Origin: Thermococcus sp.
GTDB taxonomy: Archaea > Methanobacteriota_B > Thermococci > Thermococcales > Thermococcaceae
Assembly (NCBI RefSeq): GCF_027023865.1
Contig: NZ_JALVUC010000019.1
Span: forward strand, 108,486-172,485
Direction: 5' to 3'
DNA: 64,000 nucleotides
This document shows, piece after piece, positions 13,394 through 52,654 of this stretch (position 1 is the stretch's first letter; every line of letters starts with the position of its first letter). Below the pieces are notes generated by a model. It was given only the letters and a program-made list of their open reading frames with translations. It searched no databases and was not told the DNA's origin. The translations under genes and the position numbers were made by a program.

Positions 13394-13489
13394 CGCAGTA
13401 CGTTTAACGCTACAGATGTTAATAACGTTTTCTCTTCATATTTGGCACACTATAACAAAGAGTAACACAAACGTGGAAAGTAATGATAT

Positions 13490-13700
13490 GGCCCATCCGT
13501 AACCCCCGCTCTCATTGGAGCCTGACGGCAGAACTCGAGCGGGTTAACCCGGACGGGCCTTCTGTGCCCGGCCTGGGTTTCCCGCGGCCATCGTGCTCCG
13601 TAACGCGGAAGGCCCTCCCGCGGGGACCTCGCTGTAAGGTCGGGCTGTAGCCCCCGCATCGCCCCCCGGTTCATTCTCCCCGGGGTCCTCGCGCAGGGGC
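13490..13700 (-). ncRNA. GC-rich structured RNA gene of unknown class
   Basis: About 210 nt of very GC-rich sequence with no coding frame sits in an AT-rich gap. A strong TATA box (13724-13731, minus strand) places the start at about 13700, exactly where GC-rich sequence begins (GCCCCTGCGC). The 3' part, 13490-13559, folds into a long hairpin: a 10-bp stem pairs 13550-13559 with 13490-13499, then 13537-13547 pairs with 13500-13511. The 5' half offers CCCCGG/CCGGGG, GGGC/GCCC, GACCU/AGGUC and UCCG/CGGA hairpins. T-rich sequence follows the 3' end. It lacks the SRP core (GUCAGG..GGAAGG..AGCAGC) and the RNase P motif GAGGAAAGUCC, so an Hgc-type or unknown RNA is proposed. Confidence 0.7.
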
Positions 13701-13723
13701 AGTAGTAGTTGAAGGGGAGGAGT

Positions 13724-13731
13724 ATATAAAA
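13724..13731 (-). promoter_or_regulatory. TATA box of the structured RNA
   Basis: On the minus strand the sequence reads GTTTTATATACT, an excellent archaeal TATA element. It is about 26 nt before the inferred 5' end at 13700. It lies just past the stop end of the DUF835 gene, so it cannot serve that gene. Confidence 0.65.
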
Positions 13732-13735
13732 CTGC

Positions 13736-14839
13736 TCACTCCATGAGCTTGACGAGCTGTGCGTACTTGGTTTCCTCAAAGCTGTCCCTGTCAATCACGA
13801 CAATCAGGCTGCCCCTACTGACGAGGGTAAAATCACGGAGCTTTGAGAGGAACTTTAGGAGTGAACTCCAGCTGTTGTAGACCATGAGGTACTCAATGCA
13901 GTCCATAACCATAACGCCTCCACCACCAGCCTTCTTGAAGCCCTCGGAGTACTGGAACGCAAGCTCCGTCATCTTGGCCAAGTTAGTAGGTGGGATAACC
14001 TTATCGCTGGAGTTCTTGAACGGCACTGCCGTCACAAAGTATGCCTGCCATGCCTTCGGAACATCCGAGAGGTCGCGGAGGAACGCTAGGGCCGGAAAAT
14101 TCGAGAGTTGCCCTTTGAGATCTTTATATTCATCCACGTCGATCAGCAAAACTCCCCTCTTGAGGTCGAGTTTATGCGGAACCGTCCCCACTGGGACGTT
14201 GAACCTCTCTGTTGATGTGAGTTTAAAGAGCGCCCAGACCATCGCCACTATGAGCGATGCTGAGAACATGAAGCCAATGGGGAGGTACCATTTATGGTAG
14301 CCAAAAATGGCGGCGGGGATGAGGTGGATTCCGAAGAGTATGATGCTTCCGTAAAGGTATGTCATGATTCTCGGATAAATCTCCTTGAGCGGGCGGAGGA
14401 GGAAGCCACCCACTATAACGAAGGCGCTGGCGATTCCAAGGGCGGCGGCCCCACCAACGGTCCAGACAGCATCGCCAGTGTAGAGATAAATGAGAAGGAG
14501 GTAGGCCATCAGTGCGGGAGGAATCAGCGAGAAGTAGTATGCAGTCTGGTTGAGTATCGAAATGCCCTCTTCATCCAGGAACCTCACGGCACCGTAGAAT
14601 ATCAGGGCCGAGAAAATCGTTATGGAGATGTAGCCGAGGTAGTTCATGGGAACATTGGGCGATGCGGAGAGGGCTATTGCGATGGCATCAAACAGCCACG
14701 CAAGGGAGAATGAAAGCGCTGATACGCGTCTGTTCTTAAAGTATACCCTCAGCATCCACACGAAGGCCGTGATATCCCCCAAGCAGTACAATGGAAAACT
14801 CAACACCCACCAGAGCACTAACACCGTCCATTCCCGCAT
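13736..14839 (-). CDS. Membrane protein with C-terminal DUF835 domain
   Basis: A 367-residue protein. The N-terminal ~210 residues form about seven hydrophobic segments (for example VLVLWWVLSFPLYCLG and SALIFYGAVRF). The C-terminal ~150 residues form a soluble DUF835-type domain (VLLIDVDEYKDL ... VMVMDCIEYLMVYN ... SRGSLIVVIDRDSF). DUF835 proteins are common in Thermococcales and have no settled function; the fold resembles a degenerate ATPase or receiver domain. The start ATG 14839 overlaps the stop of the upstream adenylating-enzyme gene as ATGA, so the two are coupled. A TTG one codon earlier is less likely. A stand-alone DUF835 protein occurs at 43614-44045. Confidence 0.8.
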   Translation of the reverse strand: MREWTVLVLWWVLSFPLYCLGDITAFVWMLRVYFKNRRVSALSFSLAWLFDAIAIALSASPNVPMNYLGYISITIFSALIFYGAVRFLDEEGISILNQTAYYFSLIPPALMAYLLLIYLYTGDAVWTVGGAAALGIASAFVIVGGFLLRPLKEIYPRIMTYLYGSIILFGIHLIPAAIFGYHKWYLPIGFMFSASLIVAMVWALFKLTSTERFNVPVGTVPHKLDLKRGVLLIDVDEYKDLKGQLSNFPALAFLRDLSDVPKAWQAYFVTAVPFKNSSDKVIPPTNLAKMTELAFQYSEGFKKAGGGGVMVMDCIEYLMVYNSWSSLLKFLSKLRDFTLVSRGSLIVVIDRDSFEETKYAQLVKLME

Positions 14840-34826: not shown

Positions 34827-34898
34827 GCCCCTGGGAAACCGCGGGGGATGAGCGCTTTGGCGAGCCGTGAGTCCCCTTCGCTCCCCGGGGGCACACTC
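34827..34898 (+). ncRNA. Single-hairpin H/ACA guide RNA
   Basis: The 333-bp gap between the ACT-like and glycosidase genes holds a complete archaeal H/ACA unit. A 9-bp lower stem pairs 34827-34835 (GCCCCUGGG) with 34884-34892 (CCCGGGGGC). An internal loop has guide arms AAACCGC (34836-34842) and UUCGCU (34877-34882). The upper stem GGGGA/UCCCC carries K-turn-like signals GAUGAG (34847-34852) and GUGAG (34867-34871) around an apical loop. The box ACA (34893-34895) follows the lower stem directly, and the RNA would end three bases later at 34898. Such RNAs guide pseudouridylation with Cbf5, Nop10, Gar1 and L7Ae. The predicted target pattern is GCGAA-UN-GCGGU. Confidence 0.85.
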
Positions 34899-46143: not shown

Positions 46144-46809
46144 ATGCTGAGGTTCCCACACGACACCCACACCCACACGGTTTACTCAGACGGGAGCGGC
46201 GCGATAGCCGACAACATCGCTATCGCCGAGGATAGAGGACTAAAACTTCTCGCGATAACCGACCACAGCCACTACCTCGGGCCTAAAACCCTAAACCGCT
46301 ACGTCCGGGAGGTTAGGCACTGGGCTGAGGATTCGGAGGTCAGGGTCCTGGTTGGCGTTGAGGGCAACATCACGGTCGACGGCGTTGACGTTCCGGACTG
46401 GATGGCAAAGAAGCTGGACTTTATTATAGCGAGCGTCCACGAGTGGCTCGAAACGCCGGAAGAATACCTTGAACTCGTAAAGGCAGCCCTGATGGATGAA
46501 AACGTCGATGTGATCGGTCATTTCGGTGCCAACTTCCTCTACATCGGCTTTCCAGGGACGGACGAACTTCAGGAGATCTTTGAGCTTGCGGAAGCCAACG
46601 GAAAGGCCTTTGAGATCAGCTCCCGCTACCGCGTCCCGGACGTCGGGTTCGTGAGGGAGTGCATACAGCGCGGAATAAAGCTTACCTTCGCGAGTGATGC
46701 TCACAATCCCAGAAGTGTTGGAAACGTGGAATGGAGCGAGAAGGCCTTTTTAAAGGCAGGTGGAGAAAAGGGGGATTTGCTCTTCGGGGAATTTTGTGAG
46801 GGCTTATGA
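46144..46809 (+). CDS. PHP-family metal-dependent hydrolase
   Basis: A 221-residue PHP-domain protein, a family with a trinuclear metal site acting on phosphate esters. Metal ligands are HDTHTHTVYSDG, ITDHSHYLG, a glutamate in VGVEGNI, SVHEW, IGHFG and SDAHNP. This is the stand-alone YcdX/histidinol-phosphatase-like form; the substrate is unknown. ATG 46144 follows no strong ribosome site, and TTTTTAACC upstream suggests a nearly leaderless mRNA. Confidence 0.88.
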   Translation: MLRFPHDTHTHTVYSDGSGAIADNIAIAEDRGLKLLAITDHSHYLGPKTLNRYVREVRHWAEDSEVRVLVGVEGNITVDGVDVPDWMAKKLDFIIASVHEWLETPEEYLELVKAALMDENVDVIGHFGANFLYIGFPGTDELQEIFELAEANGKAFEISSRYRVPDVGFVRECIQRGIKLTFASDAHNPRSVGNVEWSEKAFLKAGGEKGDLLFGEFCEGL

Positions 46810-46837
46810 TACGGGTAGAACAGCTTCAACGACTGCA

Positions 46838-46942
46838 TTTCAATTCTCCTAGAGTCTTATTATCCGGGGGGACGTTCCGTCCCCCACACCCCCTCAAATC
46901 CATTCCATCAGAGGTATACATCTCCTAGAGTCTTATTGCAAC
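46838..46942 (-). CRISPR. Collapsed two-repeat CRISPR locus
   Basis: Two copies of a Thermococcales CRISPR repeat are present, read on the minus strand as GTTGCAATAAGACTCTAGG...AATTGAAA. The leader-side copy (46914-46942) is intact at its 5' end but its last seven bases are changed. The far copy (46838-46866) is intact at its 3' end but its first five bases read CGGAT instead of GTTGC. About 47 bases separate them, more than a normal ~37-nt spacer. They contain a perfect 8-bp hairpin, GGGGGACG-TTC-CGTCCCCC (46867-46885). No cas gene is in the window. The locus is probably inactive. Confidence 0.75.
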
Positions 46943-47146
46943 GTTTTAAAACAGGAAATAGTGGCATTCAGGCGATTTTCGTTCCCCACATCACTATTCG
47001 AAAAAAATTTCGTTATGGATTTTTTGATAATCTGTAACACTTCGTTTGATAATAACAAACTGTAATTAAAAACTTCCAAAGGGAAAATAGCAGATGAAAC
47101 CACGAAAAAAATTTCCAAAACGCTTAAAATCCTAAAAACAGAAGAC
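46943..47146 (-). promoter_or_regulatory. CRISPR leader
   Basis: About 200 bp of strongly AT-rich sequence, with runs such as GAAATTTTTTTCG, lies directly upstream (minus-strand sense) of the leader-side repeat and ends at the Maf gene stop. Composition, position and orientation match leaders of Thermococcales arrays. No gene is supported here; the one open frame is low-complexity. Confidence 0.6.
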
Positions 47147-47716
47147 TTAACGTGATAGAACCTCAAAACCCATTTCTCTAAGCTTCCAGACTATTTCAAG
47201 GGGAAAACCAACGACGTTATAGTAATCGCCCTTTATCCACTCAACGAAGAGGCCAGCCTTCCCCTGTATGCCGTAGGCCCCTGCCTTGTCCATTGGCTCT
47301 CCAGTGGCTATGTATGCCCGTATCAACCCCTCGTCAAGCTCGCGGAACTTGACCTCTGTAACGGCCTTCCCGCAGTGTTCTTCACCCTTATGGATTATGC
47401 AGTAACCTGTCGTGACCCTATGTATCCTCCCGCTGAGGAGTTTGAGCATTTTAAAGGCAATTCCCTCGGTTTTTGGCTTGCCCAAGATTCGGCCGTCTAT
47501 GCTTACCACGGTGTCAGCACCTATCACCGTAGAATCAGGGAAAACGCGGGAGTAAACCTTCCTCGCCTTTCTCCGCGCCAGTTCTAGGACGTATTCGGCA
47601 GGCTCGCTCAGGGAGCACCCCTCACTAGCTCCGCTCGGCACGACCTCAAACTCGGGAATAAAATGGGAGAGTACCTCTCGTCTCCTCGGGCTGGAGGAGG
47701 CGAGGATTAAAGACAT
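47147..47716 (-). CDS. Maf-family nucleotide pyrophosphatase
   Basis: Maf proteins hydrolyse non-canonical or methylated nucleoside triphosphates. The 189-residue protein has the N-terminal LASSSPRRREVL loop, GADTVVSIDGRILGKP, a KA(V)TEVKFREL segment and DKAGAYGIQGKAGLFVEWIKGDYYNVVG. ATG 47716 overlaps the upstream stop as ATGA. Its stop end faces the CRISPR leader. Confidence 0.93.
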   Translation of the reverse strand: MSLILASSSPRRREVLSHFIPEFEVVPSGASEGCSLSEPAEYVLELARRKARKVYSRVFPDSTVIGADTVVSIDGRILGKPKTEGIAFKMLKLLSGRIHRVTTGYCIIHKGEEHCGKAVTEVKFRELDEGLIRAYIATGEPMDKAGAYGIQGKAGLFVEWIKGDYYNVVGFPLEIVWKLREMGFEVLSR

Positions 47717-48084
47717 CAGGTTAAGCACCCCTCAATTTCCCTGACGACCTCTTCAACGTCCCTCTCGAACTCAAAAACACTACGAAGGTTCCCGCTAATT
47801 TTTGGACAGTCACTCCCCATCCTTCTGAGCTTCGTATGGACAATGGCCTTCTTTCCATCCTTTTCCAGTGTATACTTCCTGTAAACAACGTCACAGTCGT
47901 CGCCCTCAGGAGTATCGGTGGAAACGTTGAAACGTGCCTTTAGAACCCTGTCGATGCCGTTGAGTATCTCCATCGCTATATCGTAGCTCCTGTCCTCTAT
48001 AACCATCGGAACGCAGATGTGCTCCAGGTTGTGTTTGTCAAACTTGTGAAATGTCTCCGGCATTATGATAACATCATACCTCAT
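47716..48084 (-). CDS. Conserved protein of unknown function coupled to Maf
   Basis: A 122-residue soluble protein. It has four cysteines (HICVPM, DDCDVV, SDCPK, GCLT) and no known motif. ATG 48084 is preceded by GGTGGTTGCG. It ends in the ATGA overlap with maf, so the products are probably needed together. Function unknown. Confidence 0.7.
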   Translation of the reverse strand: MRYDVIIMPETFHKFDKHNLEHICVPMVIEDRSYDIAMEILNGIDRVLKARFNVSTDTPEGDDCDVVYRKYTLEKDGKKAIVHTKLRRMGSDCPKISGNLRSVFEFERDVEEVVREIEGCLT

Positions 48085-51060: not shown

Positions 51061-51109
51061 TGTTCCGAGGGATAGGGGAGGGTTCAGGAGTCCAATCCTC
51101 TCCAGCTCA

Positions 51110-51127
51110 TCTGAACAAACGTTCAGA
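51110..51127. repeat. Inverted repeat upstream of asnB
   Basis: TCTGAAC-AAAC-GTTCAGA, a perfect 7-bp inverted repeat with a 4-nt loop, lies in the 151-bp gap between the MinD-like gene and asnB. It has no T-run after it, so it is more likely an operator or an RNA hairpin than a terminator. No second copy noticed. Confidence 0.35.
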
Positions 51128-51211
51128 GAAACCCCCTTTCTCTCGTAACCACACCATCGCGAAAGGGAGAAGTCTTTTCTTCCCCGAGGCAAAGCCCTAT
51201 CGGTGAAAAGG

Positions 51212-52654
51212 ATGTGTCTTATAGCGGGAGGAATCGGCTCAAATCTCAGGGAAAAATTCATCACCATGATTAACGCCGGAAAACATCGCGGCCCTGATAG
51301 CTTCGGTGTTTGGACTGATAAAGGTGTGCTCAAATCAGATGACTTTTCAGAGGTTTCTGAGATACCCAAGGGGGGTATTGGCCTTATCCAGTGCAGGTTG
51401 GCCATGACAGGTTCGAAGACCTTCACACAGCCCTTCATCAACGAGTTCGCCCTTACTCACAACGGAGAGGTATACAACCACCGTGAGCTTCGTGACTGGC
51501 TAGAGGGTAGGGGGGTCTCCTTTGAGAGTGACGTGGACAGTGAGGTGATTCTCGGACTCATAGAGCACCTCCTCGGGGAGGGCCTCAAGATTGAGGAGGC
51601 AGTGAGAAGAGCTATGTCGATGCTTGAGGGCGACTACGCGGTCGCTCTCTCGGACGGGGAAAGTATATACCTCTTCCGCGACCCAGTTGGGGTCAGGCCG
51701 CTCTACTACTCCCCCAGCGGTTTTTTTGCGAGCGAGAAGAAAGTTCTATGGGCGATAGGGGAGGACGCCATACCTGTAAACCCGGGAGAACTAGTCACAT
51801 TATCCAAAGAAGGGGTTAAGATCAGGAGGGTCTTCTCGCTTGAGAATCTGAGGAGGAAGCCCTTAACGGGAGAGCGCGCCGTCAATGCAGTTCTTAGGGC
51901 TTTGAACTGCACTGTTAAACACCGCATTGGGAGGAAAACAGGAATCCTCTTCTCGGGTGGACTCGACAGCTCACTCGTTGCACTTCTCGCATCAAAGTAC
52001 TCCCAAGTTATCCTCTACACTGCCGGAGCAGAGGGAAGCCCTGACCTTGAGTGGGCGAGGAAGGCCGCCGAGACCCTCGGACTGCCCCTCAGGGAGTATA
52101 TCTTCGACCTTGAGGAAGTTAAAGAGGTCGTTCCAAAGGTAACCTTTGCCATGGAAGAACCAAACCCAATGAACCTCGCAATAGGCATCCCACTCTACTT
52201 CGCCACTAGAACTGCGGGAGGAGAAGGGACAAAGGTTCTCCTAAGTGGCCAGGGAGCGGACGAGCTCTTCGGCGGCTACGCAAAGTACCTTGAAAGGCCG
52301 GAGCTGATGGACGAAGATCTGCGGGAGCTTGCCGAGAGGAATCTTGCAAGGGACGATAAGATAGAGATGCTCAACTCGGTCGAGGGACGCTTTCCATTCC
52401 TGGGTCTTCCGGTCGTTTCGGCCGCAATCAACATCCCGGTAGAACGTAAAATCGAAGATGGCGTTAAGAAGATGATCCTTAGAAAAGCCGCTGTCAAAGC
52501 CGGTCTGCCGGAAGATCTCGCCATGAGGGAGAAGAAGGCCGCACAGTATGGGAGTAACAGCCAGAAGCTTCTCAAAAAGCTCGCAAGGAGGGAAGGACTG
52601 ACCTTGCGTGAATACGCTGAAAAGGCCTTTCAGGAGGTATTTAAACGGGACTAA
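51212..52654 (+). CDS. asnB: Asparagine synthetase (glutamine-hydrolysing)
   Basis: It makes asparagine from aspartate with glutamine as ammonia donor. The 480-residue protein starts MCLIAGG, so after Met removal Cys 2 is the glutaminase nucleophile. The Ntn domain shows HRGPDSFG, RLAMTGS and NGEVYNH. The synthetase domain has the PP-loop FSGGLDSS and SGQGADELFGGYAKYLE. ATG 51212 is three codons inside the open frame and is required for Cys 2. It is monocistronic. Confidence 0.95.
   Translation: MCLIAGGIGSNLREKFITMINAGKHRGPDSFGVWTDKGVLKSDDFSEVSEIPKGGIGLIQCRLAMTGSKTFTQPFINEFALTHNGEVYNHRELRDWLEGRGVSFESDVDSEVILGLIEHLLGEGLKIEEAVRRAMSMLEGDYAVALSDGESIYLFRDPVGVRPLYYSPSGFFASEKKVLWAIGEDAIPVNPGELVTLSKEGVKIRRVFSLENLRRKPLTGERAVNAVLRALNCTVKHRIGRKTGILFSGGLDSSLVALLASKYSQVILYTAGAEGSPDLEWARKAAETLGLPLREYIFDLEEVKEVVPKVTFAMEEPNPMNLAIGIPLYFATRTAGGEGTKVLLSGQGADELFGGYAKYLERPELMDEDLRELAERNLARDDKIEMLNSVEGRFPFLGLPVVSAAINIPVERKIEDGVKKMILRKAAVKAGLPEDLAMREKKAAQYGSNSQKLLKKLARREGLTLREYAEKAFQEVFKRD

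Follow-up and report, generated by a model that had tools for sequence, protein, structure and literature searches.

How two CRISPR repeats, each damaged on its inner side, came to stand around a short perfect hairpin in place of spacers is the question raised by a small locus within the 64,000 nt of Thermococcus DNA analysed here (the window). The window genome (G000) is a draft assembly in 26 contigs, 98.7% complete. The interest of the locus lies in the hairpin, which is a conserved trailer element of Thermococcus CRISPR arrays with a second home in a protein-coding gene. The full account that we favour, with a probability of roughly 0.6, is that the locus would be the relic of an array collapsed by one deletion, in which an ancestral trailer unit was left behind and the hairpin of that unit serves as a cap.

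Anatomy of a collapsed array

Direct reading and a repeat search found a 17-bp core of a CRISPR repeat, TCTCCTAGAGTCTTATT, twice in the locus (46845-46861 and 46921-46937), identical at 17 of 17 positions and with a start-to-start distance of 76 nt. The CRISPR sense strand is the minus strand, on which the full 30-nt repeat of the former array reads GTTGCAATAAGACTCTAGGAGAATTGAAAG. The leader-side copy, GTTGCAATAAGACTCTAGGAGA, holds positions 1-22 of this repeat and the far copy, AATAAGACTCTAGGAGAATTGAAAT, positions 6-30; both are intact on the outer side only, as the first-pass annotation had described, and share the core. The sense-strand order is half a leader, GTTGCAATAAGACTCTAGGAGA, 25 nt, GAGGGGGTGTGGGGGACGGAACGTCCCCCCGGAT, and AATAAGACTCTAGGAGAATTGAAAT. 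The hairpin lies exactly where it had been placed before, at 46867-46885: nucleotides 46867-46874 pair with 46878-46885 to form 8 bp, and 46875-46877 make up the 3-nt loop. The 47 bp previously given as the distance between the repeats follow if full 30-nt repeats are assumed, and 59 nt separate the identical cores. Table 1 lists the features of the locus. No RNA family of Rfam matched at the relic locus. Elsewhere in the window, Rfam matched HgcG and Pab160, both H/ACA RNAs, at 13482-13756 (minus strand) and 34827-34895 (plus strand), which is ordinary for Thermococcales.

Table 1. Features of the relic locus and its gene borders, in window positions
Feature	Position	Strand	Basis
PHP-domain phosphatase gene, trailer-side border	46144..46809	+	Pfam PF02811 1.5e-12, NCBIfam NF006251; border kept in 9 species
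Terminal (leader-distal) CRISPR repeat, positions 6-30, without first five bases GTTGC	46837..46861	-	Sequence; same 5' truncation in other species
59-nt stretch between cores: 25 nt species-specific, then conserved hairpin element	46862..46920	-	25 nt common to the paralogous C8 trailer, not to other species
Conserved trailer hairpin element, GAGGGGGTGTGGGGGACGGAACGTCCCCCCGGA (sense)	46863..46895	-	CRISPR and gene copies; 44 strong copies in 24 Thermococcus genomes
8-bp perfect hairpin with 3-nt loop, sense GGGGGACG-GAA-CGTCCCCC	46867..46885	-	Sequence, fold, stem pairing
Leader-proximal repeat with positions 1-22 of 30 and TGTATACC instead of the final 8 nt (5' handle ATTGAAAG)	46921..46942	-	Sequence; same truncation at A22 in the C8 paralog of the same genome
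Deletion-junction side of leader; about 200 nt with TATA element and GCCCTG/repeat junction block missing	46943..46998	-	21-leader alignment
Surviving distal leader block, GGAAGTTTTTAATTACAG...ATAACGAAATTTTTTTCG	46999..47080	-	Aligns with leaders of other arrays
Maf nucleotide pyrophosphatase gene, leader-side border	47147..47728	-	Pfam PF02545 4e-59; upstream of orthologous arrays

The first-pass annotation had proposed a search of the genome for full arrays with the same repeat and for cas genes. The 17-bp core recurs exactly, at periods of 66-68 bp, in two ordinary arrays of the window genome (C8:51026-51638, with the exact cores at 51093-51638, and C19:309383-310337), and a cas1 gene lies at C19:397876. 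Regular spacing, with spacers of about 37 nt, is missing from the window locus, which has two partial repeats only and a period of 76 nt as against 66-68. The locus is a relic rather than a working array. It is also orthologous to working arrays of other species, and these, together with the two arrays of its own genome, bear out the earlier reading of a collapsed CRISPR locus; that it is an array relic, ordinary in kind, we regard as highly probable. The trailer of the C8 array matches the window locus in its truncated repeat and in the 25 nt behind it and continues with a diverged hairpin, GGAGG-ATAAAA-CCTCC; this unit closes a normal array of 10 repeats. The array at C19:309k has no hairpin.

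For 20 other arrays the leaders could be aligned across some 400 nt. They comprise two blocks, the distal one being GGAAGT...TAACGAAATTTTTTTCG and the repeat-proximal one containing a TATA-like element (AGAAAGGCTTATAAA or CTTAAATATT) and ending in CCTG before the first repeat. In the alignment of 21 leaders, only the window locus has lost about 200 nt of the repeat-proximal part with its TATA element while retaining the distal block (46999-47080), and it has no complete leader with promoter and repeat junction. The AT-rich leader of about 200 bp noted in the first-pass annotation is therefore real leader DNA, of which the distal half alone survives. The imperfect deletion suggested there is supported, on the leader side. 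One deletion that began halfway through the leader and stopped immediately ahead of the trailer unit would leave the distal leader half and the trailer unit. Lacking the leader part that holds TATA element and repeat junction, the locus is probably not transcribed from a promoter of its own and probably unable to acquire spacers. There is a small chance that the collapse is a misassembly in a 26-contig draft of one strain, but the loss of unique leader sequence is not expected from collapsed repeats alone.

The trailer hairpin in Thermococcus arrays

The same hairpin is found at the site between the maf and PHP-phosphatase genes in at least eight other Thermococcus species, mostly behind full arrays, with repeat counts of up to 47. 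The PHP border follows the hairpin-bearing trailer in eight other Thermococcus genomes and the maf border is present in seven, the G003 contig beginning within its array and thus falling outside the seven. At these orthologous sites the last full repeat is followed by 20-50 nt, then GAGGGGGTGTGGGGGACGGAACGTCCCCCC, and then a 5'-truncated terminal repeat. In an alignment of nine species, identity reaches 83% within the hairpin, 30% over the preceding 38 nt, and 53% over the following 45 nt; the hairpin therefore evolves far more slowly than its surroundings.

We read the trailer ends of 20 hairpin-bearing arrays or array remnants. All have a last 5'-intact repeat, 20-50 nt and then the hairpin, and the terminal repeat behind it usually lacks the first 3-5 nt (GTTG or GTT). 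The repeat that precedes the hairpin is often altered at its 3' end, the future 5' handle of the crRNA (TGTATACC in the window, ATTTTGGG in G014, ATTCCTAG in G012, and AAGGGGAG in G019), and has a normal handle in G082 and G004b. These readings show that the unit of 5'-intact repeat, 20-50 nt, hairpin, and 5'-less terminal repeat is ancestral in Thermococcus arrays, at this and at other loci, so that the loss of the inner halves is older than the collapse. The first-pass annotation had attributed the altered inner halves to the collapse itself and had taken strains with a normal array and the same hairpin at this place as evidence to the contrary; the comparison across species reveals such arrays, with altered halves of this kind, in other Thermococcus species. 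Four arrays of G003 share one trailer unit, their similarity ending right behind the hairpin, and the maf array of G034 has no hairpin.

The maf array of G019 (G019:C1:1238629-1239414) is leaderless and has three hairpin units, on the leader side, inside, and at the end, a structure compatible with additional deletion and fusion events between arrays. Its units have GAA, AAA, and TTC loops; GAA and TTC are reverse complements of each other, as an inversion of the loop would produce. A TTC loop also occurs in the gene copy of G017.

A pattern scan with up to 3 mismatches located the hairpin at 36 places in 23 of the 61 Thermococcus genomes and the reversed control pattern at none, and the hairpin is thus no chance palindrome. 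With a covariance model, 44 strong copies (E of 1e-5 or better) were found in 24 of the 115 genomes of the class, all of them Thermococcus, in line with the earlier expectation that the hairpin would be present elsewhere. Read in context, 26 of the copies lie in CRISPR arrays and 16 in a single gene, and the other 2 are relics. The array copies are at the trailer end in 24 cases, the other two being the non-terminal units of the G019 maf array. Each genome with strong copies has 1-4 of them, and 42 of the 44 occur in just two contexts. The hairpin element, 28-33 nt long, is retained at leader-distal array ends in many Thermococcus species. In the relic G081:C79 the hairpin survives and the array is gone, the flank matching the C8 locus of the window genome with no repeats left. 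In the other, G000:C7:1943, a degenerate repeat and the hairpin stand behind a gene end. In G029 (C1:188410), which supplies one of the 24 trailer-end copies, the hairpin is exactly the last 'spacer', of 30-31 nt, between degenerate copies of an unrelated 29-nt repeat, GTTTCCGTAGAACATAATTGTGTGGAAAG, and this array adjoins cas genes, identified by reading.

No strong trailer copy was detected by the covariance model in G010, G013, and G031, which have several arrays each; the count of arrays without hairpin is only approximate, these three genomes having been assessed by the model. A pattern scan of named genomes yielded Thermococcus and unrelated palindromes only. Among phages, plasmids, and viral contigs there was no credible match (none in plasmids, and phage matches at E 0.2). 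A viral or plasmid origin was rejected, as no plasmid matched and the two matches in viral contigs reflect GC-rich chance similarity. No published description of the Thermococcus trailer hairpin was found in the open-access literature searched.

The cells of the stem pair in 96% of cases, compared with 53-62% in slid controls, and the 59-nt stretch folds at -24.4 kcal/mol (z of -2.3 against shuffled sequences). Compensatory change was observed at one stem pair only and is confined to the G019 copies. Fold and pairing support a hairpin, with selection on the DNA as possible as selection on an RNA structure; covariation was rejected as proof of RNA structure, being too weak. Second-tier matches of the model (22-30 bits) represent a separate, dispersed GC-hairpin repeat (GGGGGTGTGGGGGCGTTAGCCCCCCGGAG...) adjoining tRNA genes. 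This repeat is found in 54 of the 61 Thermococcus genomes, in up to 15 copies, and is absent from the window genome; its frame resembles that of the trailer hairpin.

The copy inside a hot-dog thioesterase gene

The second home of the hairpin is the gene for a thioesterase-like protein of the hot-dog fold (Pfam 4HBT), which is present in 93 of the 94 genomes of the family. Of the 51 hot-dog genes compared, 15 have the hairpin as an in-frame insert of 30 nt, GGGGGTGTGGGGGACGGAACGTCCCCCCGG, at one codon position, and the others do not; carriers such as G025:C22:27589-28002 and G014:C1:242309-242722 have close relatives without it. The insert appears to have been inserted rather than to be ancestral. 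Rickettsia palindromic elements are likewise in-frame palindromic inserts in protein-coding genes, but the Thermococcus insert is far shorter (30 nt), has a single target site, and shares a reservoir in CRISPR arrays.

A gene tree was built without the insert, and a sixteenth copy, G081:C161, was left out of it as lying on a contig edge. A single clade of carriers is rejected (p-AU 7.7e-8). Parsimony gives 11 changes, at least four of which are forced by well-supported branches, although recombination may inflate the number, since the tree is that of one short gene. Compared over nine divergent carriers, the insert shows 96% identity (92% at third codon positions), a conservation that reaches well past its codons and includes synonymous sites; no other 28-nt stretch of the gene exceeds 89% (75% at third positions). 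This pattern points either to selection on the nucleotides themselves or to more than one arrival of the insert. The genes of G014 and G001 are near-identical outside the insert and differ around it, and short-tract recombination is involved in at least this pair. Of the 15 genomes with the insert, 11 lack a strong trailer copy, and the insert is absent from most genomes that carry the trailer hairpin. A guide targeting the hot-dog gene of its own host was rejected as an explanation: there is no seed match, and gene and trailer copies are mostly in different genomes.

What the hairpin may do at array ends

In class 1 arrays that place the repeat part 5' in the crRNA, the oldest repeat is an extra one and a potential source of extraneous crRNA (PMC13187072). 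Extraneous crRNA is suppressed elsewhere by hairpins in the guide and by mutation of the extra repeat (PMC12080349, PMC13187072), type II-C systems using either such mutations or a helix of the 8-bp class that traps the guide (PMC12080349). As the expected end of the array has both an 8-bp hairpin and a terminal repeat that lacks its 5' end, we propose that the trailer hairpin is a cap which would stop the last repeat from yielding extraneous crRNA. We put this function forward tentatively, at somewhat below even odds, its precedents coming from type II-C and type VI systems only.

In the RNA, the hairpin would fall within the guide part that follows the last 5'-intact repeat; together with the damage to the repeat ends, it would keep that repeat from producing an extraneous crRNA. 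Such a crRNA, if uncapped, might occupy effector complexes or target the host's own downstream DNA. The observed anatomy agrees with this proposal in that the hairpin lies 20-50 nt behind the last 5'-intact repeat, in or next to its guide, and in that the extra repeat is damaged: terminal repeats lack GTTG or GTT, and the preceding handle is often abnormal, with G082 and G004b as the normal cases. In Pyrococcus, the related Cas6 enzyme requires the 5' end of the repeat. A guide-like RNA, which the first-pass annotation had considered, is unlikely to be made in the normal way, given the altered 5'-handle region. Array duplication would have spread the element, and some other route would have carried it at least twice, into the array with the unrelated repeat and into the hot-dog gene. 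Three observations count against a cap. The hairpin is not universal, with no strong trailer copy in, for example, G010, G013, and G031 and none in the C19:309k array or the G034 maf array; the same element resides in a coding gene, a setting in which a cap for CRISPR arrays would have no purpose; and stem covariation is weak.

Trailer stability and array collapse are known (PMC8047081), and the Thermococcus hairpin resembles the described cases in its position at the oldest end, in the degenerate terminal repeat, and in a terminal unit that outlives the array. The known trailers, however, carry old spacers specific to a strain or lineage (PMC8047081), whereas the hairpin recurs across species, loci, and unrelated repeats, and the window collapse, unlike those described, also removed the promoter half of the leader. 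The hairpins that act against extraneous crRNA in types II-A, II-C, and VI (PMC12080349, PMC13187072) likewise combine a helix of the 8-bp class, by the extra repeat or would-be guide, with repeat mutations. They are system-specific leader-repeat or upstream structures, in contrast to a conserved sequence element of archaeal repeat-guide arrays with a putative suppressive role. CRISPR trailer ends are usually viewed as passive old memory; a conserved capping element that also occurs in a coding gene would offer a testable case of how class 1 archaeal systems handle the extra repeat, or, alternatively, a tiny mobile palindrome with CRISPR arrays as its niche.

That the hairpin is such a non-autonomous palindrome, REP- or MITE-like and without a role in CRISPR function, is in our view rather doubtful. 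It might be moved by a hairpin-recognising transposase and have entered next to terminal repeats and at one hot-dog site, with array duplication carrying it along. The polyphyletic in-frame insert, the hairpin between the unrelated repeats of G029, and the dispersed tRNA-side family of similar GC hairpins all speak for mobility. Small palindromes of this kind (PMC3733652, PMC12306157) are 20-40 bp long, have a conserved 5' flank, and occur in more than one genomic context, as the hairpin does. High copy number dispersed in intergenic DNA, typical of REP sequences, is not seen: the hairpin has low copy number (1-4), lies in CRISPR trailers and at one gene site within a coding region, and has no tetranucleotide tag of the GTAG/CGTC kind (PMC3733652, PMC12306157). 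The confinement of 42 of the 44 strong copies to two contexts also tells against mobility, and the two remaining copies lie where an array once was or with a fragment of a repeat. No target-site duplication was seen, and no copy in the phages, plasmids, and viral contigs searched. Of the earlier suggestion that the hairpin is the end of a mobile element, the form of a known transposon end found no support in the sets searched, and the small mobile palindrome persists as the main rival. A related possibility, which we consider unlikely, is a site-specific element that repeatedly entered and left one hot-dog codon position and trailer ends with unrelated repeats, its nucleotides being kept in both by a hairpin-recognising factor.

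The hairpin might also be a very old but ordinary last spacer, stable at the trailer and copied with arrays, with the gene as its protospacer or as an off-target site of Cas1-Cas2 integration. It does occupy a spacer position, stable trailer spacers are known (PMC8047081), and in G029 it fills exactly one 30-31-nt spacer between repeats. Several findings make this quite improbable. The match to the gene covers the handle-distal end only, leaving the handle-side 20-50 nt unmatched, so that there is no seed match; a protospacer including the handle-adjacent seed was not found, nor was any phage, plasmid, or viral match. Most of the genomes concerned have the trailer copy or the insert without the other, the insert looks inserted rather than ancestral, and old spacers are expected to drift, yet the hairpin is conserved. 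Finally, an insertion of 59 bp into one repeat that duplicated a 17-bp target, as Cas1-Cas2 might cause by integrating wrongly within the repeat, would account for the perfect cores and for outer parts that sum to exactly one repeat. It was rejected as extremely improbable and largely refuted: the C8 paralog closes a normal array of 10 repeats with this truncated repeat, these 25 nt, and a diverged hairpin, and the orthologous trailers are built alike, with repeat parts that differ in extent.

Loci with two half-repeats around a hairpin are explained by our preferred account as array relics, and repeat finders would misread them as spacer-bearing arrays. A similar remnant in the window's own genome is the relic at G000:C7:1943-1988, a lone degenerate CRISPR repeat with the hairpin at a gene end and no array. 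The hairpin-less C19 array (C19:309100-309500) has a final repeat with other sequence in place of its 3' half (GTTGCAATAAGACTCTTCTACAATTTTC), which may be a different means of disabling a terminal repeat.
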